Positions 30,784 through 37,385 of a stretch of 64,000 nt of DNA are shown here, in pieces. The notes under the pieces are model-generated. The model was not told where the DNA came from. It saw only the letters and a list, made by a program, of their open reading frames with translations, and searched no databases. The DNA comes from Crassaminicella indica (GTDB taxonomy: Bacteria > Bacillota > Clostridia > Peptostreptococcales > Thermotaleaceae). The stretch lies in the NCBI RefSeq assembly GCF_019203185.1, contig NZ_CP078093.1, positions 930,001 through 994,000 of the forward strand. Direction: 5' to 3'. How positions within the stretch are numbered: position 1 is the first letter of the stretch; each line of letters starts with the position of its first letter. A program made the position numbers and the translations under genes.

Positions 30784-33434
30784 ATTCGAATAGGTAAGGA
30801 TTTGAAGTTATCTCCACCTTTTCCCCTCGACCACACCCTGCATGAGACTTTCGAACTCACAAGGCGTTCCATCTTAAACTTTTAATCTAAATTAATCAAA
30901 TTACATTCTTTACGATATTTGTTTACTTTCTTCAACTGTTTTACGTTCAATTGAAGTTTGTTCATATATCTATCAATCGTCTCTTTTAGTGTTGCATGTA
31001 TTAACTTGTGAACATCCTTGTGTATTGCTATGAGATTAGCAAATTCATCTTTTCCACCTAATTCTGTTGGCTTTATATGATGTATCTCCACTTCATTAGC
31101 ACATAAGAATTTACCTGTGACCAAGCATTTTCCTTTCTGTGATGAGTATTTAGAGAGTTTGTTATCTGCTAATTCAACCGTATTATATTCGTATATATTA
31201 TTCATAAGCCTTTGTATTTCAGTAGACACATTAGGTTTTAGTTTCTTGTATATTAATTCTCTACCTTGAGATGTATAGTTACATATATTTTGTGAAAAAT
31301 TCATCACATTTTTAGTCTGTATGTCTGCTATTGGATGGAGATATAAACCTGCTACCTTATGTGTTTTAAAGTTATTTTTATTGAACTTTTTGTATGTTTC
31401 GTTGGGTTTAATAGGAATTTCACATTTACCTATTGATTTTAGACGATTGAATAGGGTTTTGGAAATTTGATAGGCTATTTTACTAAAATCTCTGTTAATA
31501 TGCGTTGCATATTTGTAGTAGTTTTTAATCCCTATAATATATATGTTGTATTTATTGACTGTACTTGTTAAAGGATTTTTTTGTATATTTAAAATTAAAT
31601 CTCTTAATCTTGATTTAATCTTCTCCTTTTTCTTTTCCATGACGAATGTATTAGCAACATGTTTGTTTCTCTTTTTTACTACTTTAATCTTGAATCCTAG
31701 AAAATCTGAACTTTTCTTTCTAAGATTTGTTATTTGAGATTTTTCTGTTGATATATCCAGTTTCAAATTATTCTTTAAATAGTTTTTAATTGCATGAAAT
31801 ATTTTATTTGCTGTTATGTGATTTCTAGTGTAAATTTTGAAATCATCAGCGTACCTTACAATGAACATTTCTTTTAGATTACTATATTTTTTAAGTCCCA
31901 AGTATTTACTGTCTACTCTTGAATATCTGTATTTGGTTTCAAAGGTTTCCCATTGGTCACTAACCCACCAATCTAATTCATTTAACACAATATTAGACAG
32001 TAAAGGAGATAATATACCTCCTTGTGGAGTACCTTCAGTTGGTATCCCTATTCCTTCTATTGGTGCTTTTAGCATTTTACTAACTATTCTAAGAACTCTC
32101 TTATCTTTGATACCTATATCATACATCTGTTTTAATAATTTTGTATGATTTACGTTATCAAAGAAACCTTTTATATCTATATCTACTACATGATGCATCT
32201 TCCCTATATTAATTAGGTATTGATTTCTTGACATAGCATGATGAGTTGACCTATTAGGTCTAAATCCATAAGAATGTTTGTGGAATCTTGCTTCGCATAT
32301 TGATTCAAGAACTTGTTTGAACATTTGCTGTATAATTCTATCTCTCATAGTTGGTATTCCTAAAGGTCTTGTTTTACCGTTATCTTTAGGGATTTCTACC
32401 CTTCTAATCGAGTTGGGTTTGTAATTCTTTAGTGTGTCTCTTATTTCTTTCACAAATGTACCTTCATCCTTGACTTTATAATCTGCTATTGTCAATCCAT
32501 CAGTACCTTTAGTTTTACTTCCTGTGTTAGCCTTGATGTTTCTATATGCAAGAAGTATATTTTCTCTTGATGTTATGATTTCATATAATCTAAGACCGTT
32601 AGTGGCTCTTTTCTTACTTCTATCATATAACCAATCGAATGTTTCTTGCATACCGTAATATTCGCTATATCGTAATGCTGTACTCATTGATGGCGTGTTG
32701 TTCTCCTTCCATACAGAAGTCCCATCATCTTACCTGACCCTATGAGTTTCATTTAATTAGTTCAGTTTTCAAAGTTCAAGACTTGGGACTATCCCTCCGC
32801 CACTTATTATCATGGTTTCATAGGTACTGTGTCCCTACTTTCACAAAAGTAAATTCATTTCAATATCATTTGATATCTTATAGAAACCAACCCGATTAGT
32901 AGTCGTTTAGATAGTTGACTTTTGCTTACAATGTTCCGATTAACTTAGCTTTTACATATATCCTTAGATGCTTACTATGAGCCTGTTAATTTATACCTTC
33001 GTTGTTAGGTATTCCGAATTTCTTAATTGACAAACATACTTTTCGGTAATTAACCCCACTAGTTGTGGTTTAAATATTTCTATTTAATAAGAATTTAGAC
33101 TCGTACATTCGCAAGTTCGTCAGTTCATTTAAGAACATTCTCACCGTAGATATTTTCTAGCACTCCGACCTATCATACACTCAACCACCTCTGGTTCGCA
33201 TTTCGTGGTGGTAGGTTATTATCCCACATGCCTTACGGTATACTCTTAGCCGACTTTACCTAGCTTCAAACCCTTAATGTCTACTAAACATTAAACGCTT
33301 GTAGGAGTATCAAGTAATTCGTTTCAGCCTACATGAAGGCTTCATTCCAAATTTCAGTTAATCAGTTAGATTAAATGTGATTTCATTAATCCTCTCTTTT
33401 CGTGATTAATCACTTATAGAGAAACATTTCGCAC
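30784..33434 (-). mobile_element. Group II intron inserted in tnpB
   Basis: A 2651-base intron. The 5' end is GTGCG (33430-33434) and the 3' end is ...CCTATTCGAAT (AY rule). Removing it joins EEID to STSLQMSLRN in frame, giving a normal TnpB sequence. Domain V is recognisable at about 30829-30868 (CGCC... with a GAAA loop and GGTG). Domain I (32688-33434) holds a GTCAATT EBS1 candidate at 33025-33031 that pairs with the last seven exon bases. The reverse transcriptase gene lies in domain IV. Confidence 0.9.
30882..32687 (-). CDS. ltrA: Group II intron reverse transcriptase/maturase with HNH endonuclease
   Basis: A 601-residue intron-encoded protein. RT domain with GFRPNRSTHHA, DIDIKGFFDNV, the GTPQGG motif and the active-site VRYADDF; then the maturase X domain; then a C-terminal HNH endonuclease (CLVTGKFL, EIHHIKPTELGGKDEFANL, HKDVHKLIH). 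It promotes splicing and retrohoming. The reading frame and all motifs are intact, so the intron may still be active even though its host element is not. Confidence 0.95.
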   Translation of the reverse strand: MSTALRYSEYYGMQETFDWLYDRSKKRATNGLRLYEIITSRENILLAYRNIKANTGSKTKGTDGLTIADYKVKDEGTFVKEIRDTLKNYKPNSIRRVEIPKDNGKTRPLGIPTMRDRIIQQMFKQVLESICEARFHKHSYGFRPNRSTHHAMSRNQYLINIGKMHHVVDIDIKGFFDNVNHTKLLKQMYDIGIKDKRVLRIVSKMLKAPIEGIGIPTEGTPQGGILSPLLSNIVLNELDWWVSDQWETFETKYRYSRVDSKYLGLKKYSNLKEMFIVRYADDFKIYTRNHITANKIFHAIKNYLKNNLKLDISTEKSQITNLRKKSSDFLGFKIKVVKKRNKHVANTFVMEKKKEKIKSRLRDLILNIQKNPLTSTVNKYNIYIIGIKNYYKYATHINRDFSKIAYQISKTLFNRLKSIGKCEIPIKPNETYKKFNKNNFKTHKVAGLYLHPIADIQTKNVMNFSQNICNYTSQGRELIYKKLKPNVSTEIQRLMNNIYEYNTVELADNKLSKYSSQKGKCLVTGKFLCANEVEIHHIKPTELGGKDEFANLIAIHKDVHKLIHATLKETIDRYMNKLQLNVKQLKKVNKYRKECNLINLD

Positions 33435-33653
33435 GTCAATTTCTTCAAGCCATACAAATTCTTTTTTCATGCTTGGTAATTGATTTTGCTGCTGAGTATA
33501 TTTCATACATCTTTTTTCATTTTTATATACTTCATTTCTTTGATTTAAGAAATAGTTATATACAAATCTTGAACAACCGAAAGTCTTTTCAATAATTTCT
33601 ATCTGATTTTTATTTGGATATATTCTAAATTTGTATGCTTTATTGATTTTCAC
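33435..33653 (-). pseudogene. tnpB: tnpB, 5' exon
   Basis: Starts at GTG 33653 behind AAAGGTGG and encodes MKINKAYKFRIYPNKNQ, the standard N-terminus of TnpB/OrfB, then the HTH_OrfB region to WLEEID where the intron begins. With the 3' exon it forms a TnpB lacking its C-terminus. 15 bases after tnpA. Confidence 0.88.
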
Positions 33654-33668
33654 TACTTTTTACCACCT

Positions 33669-34067
33669 TTACTTTTTACCTTGACTCTGAATATATTTCT
33701 TTATTACTTCTATAGGTGAACCACCTGTTGTAAGTAAGCAGTAACTTCTTGACCAAAAATATTCTTTCCATAATTTTTTCTTTATTTGAGGAAACTCTTT
33801 TTTTATAAGTCTACTACTCGCACTTTTATAAGCATTTATAAATTTTGATAATTCACTATTTGGATGTGCTTTGAATAATACATGAACATAATTTTTGTCA
33901 TGTTCCCATTCTTGGGTAGTTATATTATAATTTGGACTTATTTTCTCAAATATATCTTTTAGTCTATTGCTTATATCATCATTTATTACTTCTCTTCTGT
34001 ATTTTATAACTAATACAAGATGATAATGCAACAAGAACACTGAATGATTATTTGTATCTAATTTCAT
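33669..34067 (-). CDS. tnpA: IS200-type Y1 transposase TnpA, HUH motif altered
   Basis: A 132-residue Y1 single-strand transposase. LLHYHLVLVIKYR and the C-terminal helix IEVIKKYIQSQ with the nucleophilic Tyr are present. The HUH metal motif reads Y-V-H (KNYVHVLF) instead of the family H-U-H (DHVHxLF): the first His is Tyr, encoded TAT, one base from CAT. Catalysis is therefore doubtful. The frame is otherwise intact. ATG 34067 chosen; GTG 34076 is also possible. Confidence 0.85.
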   Translation of the reverse strand: MKLDTNNHSVFLLHYHLVLVIKYRREVINDDISNRLKDIFEKISPNYNITTQEWEHDKNYVHVLFKAHPNSELSKFINAYKSASSRLIKKEFPQIKKKLWKEYFWSRSYCLLTTGGSPIEVIKKYIQSQGKK

Positions 34068-34150
34068 TATTATCACTCATTTCTATTATTTACTACTAAC
34101 TTTATTTTAGCACAAAAAAATAATAGAAGCAAGTTGTGTTTACGCATTCA

Positions 34151-35541: not shown

Positions 35542-36144
35542 ATGAATACTGCTATTTCCTCACACACTCACTCAATCGATATACATTCCCCCGTAGCAAT
35601 TTATGATTTTGATAAAATATTTACAGAATATCTAACCAATTATTTTACAAGCGAATACAAAGCATTAGTCATTATGTGTATTGGTACAGATCGTGCAACA
35701 GGCGATTCTTTAGGTCCTTTGATTGGTTACAAACTAAAAAAAAGCTTAAAAAATTATAAAAACATTTTTATACATGGAACTCTAGAAAATCCTGTTCACG
35801 CAAAAAATCTTCGTGCTTCTATTGACTTTGTTTATAAGAACTATAAAAATCCCTTTGTCATTGCTATTGATGCTTGTTTGGGAAAATTTGATAGAATTGG
35901 ATATATCACAATAGGCTACGGTCCTTTAAAACCTGGAGCTGGTGTAAATAAACAACTTCCTTCTATAGGAAATATGCATATTACAGGCATTGTAAACTTA
36001 AGTGGATTTATGGAGTATATTATATTACAAAATACAAGACTAAATCTTGTAATGAAAATGGCTGATACTATTGCTGATGGCATTCAGTATAGCCTATGGA
36101 AATTTTTAAAAAGAATTACAAAGGAGCAGTATGAACTAAACTAG
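35542..36144 (+). CDS. yyaC: Spore protease YyaC
   Basis: A 200-residue protein of the YyaC family (GPR-like sporulation protease): IGTDRATGDSLGPLIGYKL, HGTLENPVHAKNL and the IDACLG core are diagnostic. Indicates an endospore former. ATG 35542 (MNTAISSH) is chosen; AAGGAGGT is 11 bases upstream. An out-of-frame ATG at 35534 with better spacing opens a three-codon reading frame whose stop overlaps the yyaC start. Confidence 0.92.
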   Translation: MNTAISSHTHSIDIHSPVAIYDFDKIFTEYLTNYFTSEYKALVIMCIGTDRATGDSLGPLIGYKLKKSLKNYKNIFIHGTLENPVHAKNLRASIDFVYKNYKNPFVIAIDACLGKFDRIGYITIGYGPLKPGAGVNKQLPSIGNMHITGIVNLSGFMEYIILQNTRLNLVMKMADTIADGIQYSLWKFLKRITKEQYELN

Positions 36145-36163
36145 ATCATCACTGCTCCTCTTT
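36122..36163 (+). terminator. Terminator overlapping the yyaC stop
   Basis: AGGAGCAGT/ACTGCTCCT nine-base perfect stem with a 20-base loop, then CTTTATTT. Confidence 0.65.
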
Positions 36164-36165
36164 AT

Positions 36166-36432
36166 TTAAAATAAAGATTCATATGTTCTTTTTTCTATAG
36201 CATAAATAATCTCATCAATACGCTTATTTTTTATATTTATCACTATCGCACCTTTATCCATATCAATGACACTATCAAAATTGCCCAAATAGCTCAATCT
36301 ACCATAATCACTATCATAAAGAATAGCATCTACATATCCGTCATAATTTTCATGTACCACTTCATATCCTCTCGCTTCTAATTCTTTGCCTATATCCTTT
36401 AGATGATCCTGTATAGCTACTATCTTTGGCAT
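36166..36432 (-). CDS. YkuS family protein (UPF0180)
   Basis: An 88-residue protein matching UPF0180/YkuS: KIVAIQDHL-type start, GYEVVH, VDAILYDSD and AIVINIKNKRIDEI. Function unknown. The Shine-Dalgarno AGGAGGTG is ideal but lies wholly in the 3' arm of a perfect 14-bp hairpin just before the ATG. Confidence 0.85.
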   Translation of the reverse strand: MPKIVAIQDHLKDIGKELEARGYEVVHENYDGYVDAILYDSDYGRLSYLGNFDSVIDMDKGAIVINIKNKRIDEIIYAIEKRTYESLF

Positions 36433-36435
36433 ACA

Positions 36436-36470
36436 AACACCTCCTAGTTGTATTATAACTAGGAGGTGTT
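36436..36470 (-). promoter_or_regulatory. Hairpin sequestering the ykuS-like ribosome binding site
   Basis: A perfect 14-bp stem (36457-36470 with 36436-36449) with a seven-base loop. In the mRNA the 3' arm contains AGGAGGTG and ends three bases before ATG 36432. The 5' arm is its exact anti-Shine-Dalgarno complement. No T-run follows, so termination is less likely than translational control. Confidence 0.65.
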
Positions 36471-36494
36471 ATATTTATACTATTTATGTTAAAT

Positions 36495-37385
36495 TTATAT
36501 AAAATTATCCTGCGGTACAAGAACTTTCAAGCATTTTGGAACCATTTCAAAGCATATATTAAAGCTTTTTCCTATAATATCTCCATCTAAATTGATAGAT
36601 AACAGTTCTTGACTTTTTATTTTTATCTGCTTTCCTCTATAAATATCTACCTCATCATAGCCCACATGTTCACCTGAAAATATTTTAGGAAATACCATCA
36701 TAAGCTTTAACTTTGAAATTTTATCAACAACACAAACTTGAAAATCTCCATCTTTTATATCTGCCATTGGAGCAATTTTCATTCCACCACCATAATATTT
36801 TCCATTTGCAACTGCTACTAGAGTAATATTTTTATGGTCCTTTGTTCCATCAATATTCATATCTACTTTTTTATACTTATAAGAAAAGATTGTCTTCAGC
36901 AATCCTCCAATATAAGCCCACGAACCTGAAATATATTTCTTAATATCTTCTGTTCCCCTCACAATTTCTGCATCTAATCCAACACTTGCAACATTTACAA
37001 AATGGCGATCATTAACTTTTCCACAATCAATATGTACTGTTTTTCCATAAATAATAATTTCTAACGCTTTCTCTAAATCCTTTGGTATCCCTACAGTTTT
37101 AACAAAATCATTTCCTGTACCAGTTGGAACTACACCAAGAGAAGCATCTGATCCTATTATTCCATTAACAACTTCATAAATTGTTCCGTCTCCACCTACT
37201 GCTACAATTTTTTTATATCCTTGTATTACTGCATTTTTTGCTATTTCTTCCGCTTCATTTTTTCGAGTAGTTAATTTGATTTTATAAGGTATATGCAAAG
37301 AGTCCATATTTTTCTTGATTTTTTCTATAATAAAATCGCATTTACCTTTCCCTGCTACCGGGTTTACAATAAATAATATATCCAT
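36495..37385 (-). CDS. Diacylglycerol/lipid kinase, DagK/YegS-type
   Basis: A 296-residue lipid kinase. VNPVAGKG at the N-terminus, VGGDGTIYEVVNGI with the catalytic GGDGT motif, GVVPTGTGNDF, and the C-terminal beta domain. Phosphorylates diacylglycerol or related lipids with ATP. ATG 37385. Preceded by a DUF4446 gene ten bases away. Confidence 0.9.
   Translation of the reverse strand: MDILFIVNPVAGKGKCDFIIEKIKKNMDSLHIPYKIKLTTRKNEAEEIAKNAVIQGYKKIVAVGGDGTIYEVVNGIIGSDASLGVVPTGTGNDFVKTVGIPKDLEKALEIIIYGKTVHIDCGKVNDRHFVNVASVGLDAEIVRGTEDIKKYISGSWAYIGGLLKTIFSYKYKKVDMNIDGTKDHKNITLVAVANGKYYGGGMKIAPMADIKDGDFQVCVVDKISKLKLMMVFPKIFSGEHVGYDEVDIYRGKQIKIKSQELLSINLDGDIIGKSFNICFEMVPKCLKVLVPQDNFI

Follow-up and report, generated by a model that had tools for sequence, protein, structure and literature searches.

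Within the window, i.e., the whole 64,000-nt stretch of Crassaminicella indica DNA that was analyzed, the minus strand carries a gene assigned to the UPF0180 (YkuS-like) family (Pfam E-value of 1.6e-11, 44.7 bits against the curated cut-off of 25.4), preceded at a distance of 62 nt by a gene encoding a dagK/YegS-like lipid kinase on the same strand. UPF0180 is a family of uncharacterised proteins and the host is a spore-forming bacterium, whose genome falls into one genus with two Marinisporobacter MAGs (Thermotaleaceae, Clostridia); the PDB sequence search returned a single, non-significant match (E-value of 0.045). The scan for terminator-like sites indicated none on the minus strand between the two genes, and the dagK-like gene is the likely source of read-through RNA. 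The UPF0180 (ykuS) gene is convergent with a yyaC-type (DUF1256) gene, and the sporulation gene table in PMC3416734 places both ykuS and yyaC of B. subtilis under sigma-F. The features of the locus are summarized in Table 1.

Table 1. Genes, hairpin and predicted promoter elements at the UPF0180 locus (positions within the window).
Feature	Positions	Strand	Basis
UPF0180 (YkuS-like) gene, 88 aa, ATG at 36432	36166..36432	-	Pfam PF03698 and ORF
dagK/YegS-like lipid kinase gene, upstream, co-directional	36495..37385	-	Pfam PF00781 and PF19279
Shine-Dalgarno (SD) sequence AGGAGGTG, inside the 3' arm of the hairpin	36438..36445	-	sequence
Hairpin 3' arm AACTAGGAGGTGTT	36436..36449	-	fold and inverted repeat
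Hairpin loop ATAATAC, holding most of the -10 element	36450..36456	-	fold
Hairpin 5' arm AACACCTCCTAGTT, within the -35/-10 spacer	36457..36470	-	fold and inverted repeat; kept in 16/16 family genomes
Predicted -10 element TATAATA	36451..36457	-	motif, conserved in relatives; sigma factor inferred
Predicted -35 element GTATA, 18 nt from the -10 element	36476..36480	-	motif
Predicted transcription start region, 5-8 nt past the -10 element, leader of 11-14 nt	36443..36446	-	inferred from promoter geometry

The region preceding the UPF0180 start codon is a perfect inverted repeat (36436-36470), which in RNA of the minus (coding) strand is predicted to fold into a 14-bp stem with a 7-nt loop, and in this fold all of the SD sequence AGGAGGTG is paired. 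This confirmed the initial annotation, which had described the ribosome binding site of a ykuS-like gene as locked in a 14-bp hairpin, except that the SD lies five (TTTGT) and not three bases before the ATG; the strand of the feature is the minus one. The palindrome occurs as a single copy in the 2.76-Mb genome, its centroid energy is -21.4 kcal/mol, and equally good folds were obtained in 2 of 200 dinucleotide shuffles of the 101-nt stretch. The predicted cost of opening the SD is 14.6 kcal/mol at 37 °C in the read-through transcript and 15.6 kcal/mol in the standard comparison window. The latter value was set against those of 163 ORFs with a GGAGG or AGGAG SD, collected from 464 kb of the same genome (the window and 20 evenly spaced stretches), for which the median cost was 1.8 kcal/mol and 20/163 reached at least 5 kcal/mol. 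The gene from the window had the strongest SD mask of all 163, and the second strongest (12.9 kcal/mol) belonged to the other UPF0180 gene.

The same region appears to accommodate a promoter. A candidate GTATA-N18-TATAATA promoter was found with its -35 element at 36480-36476 and its -10 element at 36457-36451; therefore, the spacer is filled by the 5' arm of the hairpin and the -10 element is essentially the loop, a point missed by the initial annotation. Transcription starting 5-8 nt past the -10 element would begin at the SD (36446-36443), and the resulting RNA would have a probability of 0.60-0.95 of keeping the SD open, compared with about 5e-11 at 37 °C predicted for RNA entering from upstream. 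In B. subtilis, the sigma-G consensus is GNATR-N18-CATNNTA. We take the promoter from the window to fit it. The sigma-F and sigma-G promoters of C. difficile overlap (PMC7438776). The scan for sigma-70 promoters on the minus strand (36100-36600) found none, presumably because the promoter is of another type, which would be the forespore sigma-G (or sigma-F) one. Since the genes of SASPs of the family, taken as a yardstick for sigma-G, did not exhibit the promoter motif of the UPF0180 gene under the scoring used here, the assignment to sigma-G is not secured.

Orthologues of the gene are present in 16/16 genomes of the family Thermotaleaceae, and in every one of them the hairpin, the SD and the promoter share a common register. 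The aligned block is free of gaps in all 16 genomes and reads GTATA (15 genomes) or GAATA (one), 18 nt, (C/T/A)ATAATA, and then CTAGGAGGTG. Seven pairs of the stem core are retained in 16/16 orthologues and two further ones in 15/16. The arms hardly vary, which is why the orthologues considered alone revealed no significant covariation (382/2000 in the arm permutation); the changes are mostly one-sided exchanges between G-C and G-U pairs, as in column 27, where C or T of the left arm faces G. It should be added that the pattern CYTYCT..ATAATA..AGGAGG, when scanned for in the 16 genomes, also produced chance matches inside other genes.

A wider comparison was based on UPF0180 genes found in 73/297 genomes sampled from the order and in 73/291 sampled from the class (E-value threshold of 1e-8). 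Among the matches listed, 129 loci of the order set and 81 of the 88 taken from the class set were scored, and six order loci without a score, seven of the 88 class loci without an SD-bearing start, and eight duplicates were left out of the counts. Many paralogous loci carry SD hairpins with varied arms (GTAC/GTAC, GTAGG/CCTAC, TTGG/CCAA) and with loops of 7 to about 40 nt, inside which the -10 element is found; in the class sample, the best promoter was located in the loop for 33 of the 40 loci with a mask of at least 5 kcal/mol. In a count anchored on the nearest NATAHTA, the distance from GHATR to the downstream -10 element was exactly 18 nt in 47/54 hairpin loci, while any other spacing between 8 and 35 nt occurred 0-5 times. 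The covariation of both arms, proposed as a check in the initial annotation and lacking a signal among the orthologues, did emerge among the paralogues. The pairing energy of own arms at 61 UPF0180 loci was -13.65 kcal/mol versus -10.26 kcal/mol for swapped ones, and at 23 dereplicated loci -13.33 versus -9.78 kcal/mol, with 0/2000 permutations reaching the observed value in both cases (a wrong -10 element was chosen for loci L051 and L117, both of which were kept in these counts). This suggests, at the level of compared sequences, that the pairing is maintained by selection across the paralogues, on which the orthologue group alone is uninformative.

The presence of the hairpin was associated with the orientation of the neighbouring gene. 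Of 119 UPF0180 loci that follow a co-directional gene at no more than 150 nt, 90 had a mask of at least 5 kcal/mol, compared with 10 of the 49 loci with a divergent neighbour (Fisher test, 6e-11, with relatedness ignored and with neighbours and starts called by ORF heuristics). When the order and class sets were pooled, the same tendency was visible in the high-scoring subfamily (27/39 co-directional versus 6/33 divergent loci) and in the low-scoring one (63/80 versus 4/16); when a single subfamily was tested within the order or the class set alone, some of the Fisher tests were not significant. Of the remaining co-directional genes sampled from the own genome, 7/79 reached 5 kcal/mol. Divergent loci such as L090 and L094 are devoid of the hairpin that their subfamily otherwise carries. 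There are exceptions in both directions, i.e., 29/119 co-directional loci without a strong mask and 10/49 divergent loci with one; moreover, L058, L169 and L175 possess a terminator as well as the hairpin. The upstream genes examined included those of dagK/YegS, DUF4446, LacI-type, GGDEF, and ABC-class ATPase proteins.

Taken together, these data indicate that the element is probably an insulator with a promoter in its loop, which silences read-through messages. RNA polymerase entering from dagK would transcribe both arms, the RNA would fold with the SD buried, and no UPF0180 protein would be made from that message, whereas a transcript from the gene's own promoter would begin near the SD, within the 3' arm, lack the 5' arm and remain open to ribosomes. 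The production of UPF0180 would thus be tied to its own promoter, presumably in the forespore. The arrangement expected of such an insulator is found in the window: the upstream gene is co-directional with no intervening terminator, the SD is predicted to pair with the upstream arm in read-through RNA, and, as far as its motif is concerned, the promoter sits where a transcript made from it would not include the 5' arm. The hairpin, the promoter motif, their conservation, the covariation among paralogues, and the association with co-directional neighbours are properties of the sequences; from them we infer the sigma factor, the start site, the read-through, the translation block, and its timing. 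A transcript starting within the loop and therefore devoid of the 5' arm had been named in the initial annotation as the case that would speak against a locked ribosome binding site, and this is near what the conserved promoter predicts. In its own message, the hairpin would not be a lock to be opened; it would rather act as a filter against other messages.

Among the other explanations, the one that survives best, though we regard it as unlikely, is that the hairpin and a U tract in the spacer between the SD and the start codon form an intrinsic terminator of the upstream operon, which ends dagK transcription, the masking of the SD being secondary. At least five T residues within 7 nt after the SD were found in 56/114 hairpin-bearing UPF0180 loci, compared with 13/96 loci without a hairpin and 34/163 genes of the own genome, and several loci, L269, L277 and L280 among them, resemble ordinary terminators. 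Hence, in many relatives, transcription from upstream may come to an end at the stem, which would add to the block. In the window, however, the tract TGTTTGTAT is weak and no stem followed by a U tract of the intrinsic-terminator kind was recognized on the minus strand; in addition, 8/16 orthologues have no U-rich tract by the T-count measure and still keep the stem, and each of them has its pairing centred on the SD. Termination at the hairpin in some relatives would be compatible with the insulator reading.

It is very improbable that the structure is a switchable one acting in the gene's own transcript, i.e., a thermometer, a ligand switch or a helicase target, as its stability and conservation might imply and as the initial annotation assumed when it proposed that the block on translation is relieved by temperature, a ligand, ribosomes from upstream, or an RNA helicase. 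The block itself is plausible for RNA entering from upstream, but these routes of opening were not supported. The predicted probability of an open SD in the read-through RNA does not exceed 4e-6 up to 75 °C, which does not fit an RNA thermometer, and the Rfam search of 36000-37000 gave no match at threshold to a riboswitch or another cis-regulator, only four sub-threshold matches of a chance type. Since a ribosome terminating on dagK would halt some 25 nt short of the stem (36495 versus 36470), it is unlikely that coupling opens the hairpin. A conserved promoter lies inside the structure, and the main transcript should therefore lack one arm.

Slightly less credible still is a DNA dyad surrounding the -10 element and recognized by a transcription factor. 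The palindrome is near-perfect, has CTAG half-sites and is almost invariant among the orthologues, but the paralogues keep complementarity with other arm sequences and with loops of 7 to about 40 nt, and the C/T exchange in column 27 preserves a G-U pair in RNA while breaking the symmetry of DNA. That the hairpin is a by-product of a strong SD, which fixes one arm, combined with chance or compositional symmetry is practically negligible in the light of the first two ranks held by UPF0180 genes among 163, the conservation in 16/16 genomes, and the arm permutation test. The operator dyad and chance were thus both rejected, on arm diversity, ranks, conservation, and permutations.

An insulator with the promoter in its loop would have precedents. 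In bacteriophage T4, long early transcripts of gene e (also of soc and 49) fold and hide the SD, and late promoters adjoin the ribosome binding sites, so that transcripts without the 5' strand are well translated (PMC3014915). The likeness to the window consists in an SD hidden in long RNA and an own-promoter RNA lacking the 5' strand; the differences are that T4 uses a phage late promoter and not a sporulation one, and that its block was measured (approximately 100-fold), whereas that of the window is predicted. A further difference is that the -10 element forms the loop of the hairpin from the window. In the case of sigG (spoIIIG) of B. subtilis, a hairpin of at least 20 bp was proposed to block translation of the spoIIGA-sigE read-through, while transcripts initiated at the forespore promoter of sigG itself cannot adopt it (PMC5942855); as proposed there, read-through is blocked and own-promoter RNA is unable to fold, which resembles the window. 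The sigG case concerns another gene and a long hairpin, whereas the element described here is compact (35 nt), centred on the -10 element, recurrent throughout an entire protein family, and associated with the orientation of the neighbouring gene. With these two precedents, the mechanism is known in kind. In leaders of IS200-type transposase genes, an SD-masking hairpin limits translation from outside transcription; the SD-masking hairpin is shared with the window, while IS200 is a mobile element, and the candidate promoter in the loop is a feature described here for UPF0180 loci.

With the terms searched in open-access literature, we found no paper on a promoter-in-loop architecture for UPF0180/ykuS, nor a description of the compact form, its family-wide spread, or its association with neighbour orientation. 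What seems to be a locked ribosome binding site may be a logic gate, in which the promoter of origin decides whether a message is translated. Throughout the class Clostridia, such a gate appears to be conserved, and different paralogues build it differently. It would offer a sequence-based route to genes that need silence outside the compartment of their own promoter, and a natural comparison set for the evolution of insulation between operons.

Whether this is a general grammar of forespore genes in Clostridia, with selection building such insulation at every forespore gene located behind an expressed one, is a tentative idea that we consider rather doubtful. In such a grammar, the -35/-10 spacer would serve as the anti-SD, the -10 element as the loop and the transcript start as the SD arm; the element would often double as a terminator of the upstream operon, and it would be gained and lost as neighbours rearrange. 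In the 464-kb sample, a strong promoter of this type precedes 7/163 SD genes, three of which are masked by at least 5 kcal/mol (20/163 overall), including one gene from outside UPF0180, L194:6823.

Several other hairpins and promoters were observed. The gene L194:6823 (plus strand, own genome) encodes an 80-aa zinc-ribbon-like protein near the second UPF0180 gene and has GAATT-N18-TATAATA in an SD-masking hairpin (7.9 kcal/mol). At L269, L277, L280, L104 and other loci, the SD-masking hairpin with the promoter in its loop is followed by a U run in the SD-start spacer and is terminator-like. In two family genomes (L069 and L074; a similar match occurs in a third), TATAAT lies inside an SD-masking hairpin, CCTCCTTTTATAATA...AAAAGGAGG, of a gene whose product, a membrane-anchored protein of some 410 aa, looks HtrA-like by eye and has no Pfam match in its 120 N-terminal residues. 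A 68-aa gene (G000:C1:1964095, L317) with a SASP gene some 2 kb away has the hairpin CCTCCTAAGT...AATTAGGAGG over its SD. Among the SASP loci L287-L315, GGTTAAATTAATA(G)TAC-like upstream DNA is common to many of those examined, and the leader hairpin ACAACATC...GATGTTGT is present in a number of them. An IS200-type tnpA gene (PF01797) of the own genome (L197:14653, minus strand) has an SD-masking leader hairpin that ranks fifth of 163, and another one (PF01797) is located in the window at 33414-34076 (minus strand), followed by a short ORF resembling, by eye, a tnpB fragment. Finally, upstream of position 35542 (plus strand) of the window, in front of the DUF1256 (yyaC) gene, there is GCATT...GGGACAAACT, which recurs in relatives and which we take to be sigma-F-like by consensus; it lies within the initial codons of the longest yyaC ORF, which makes 35542 the probable true start.
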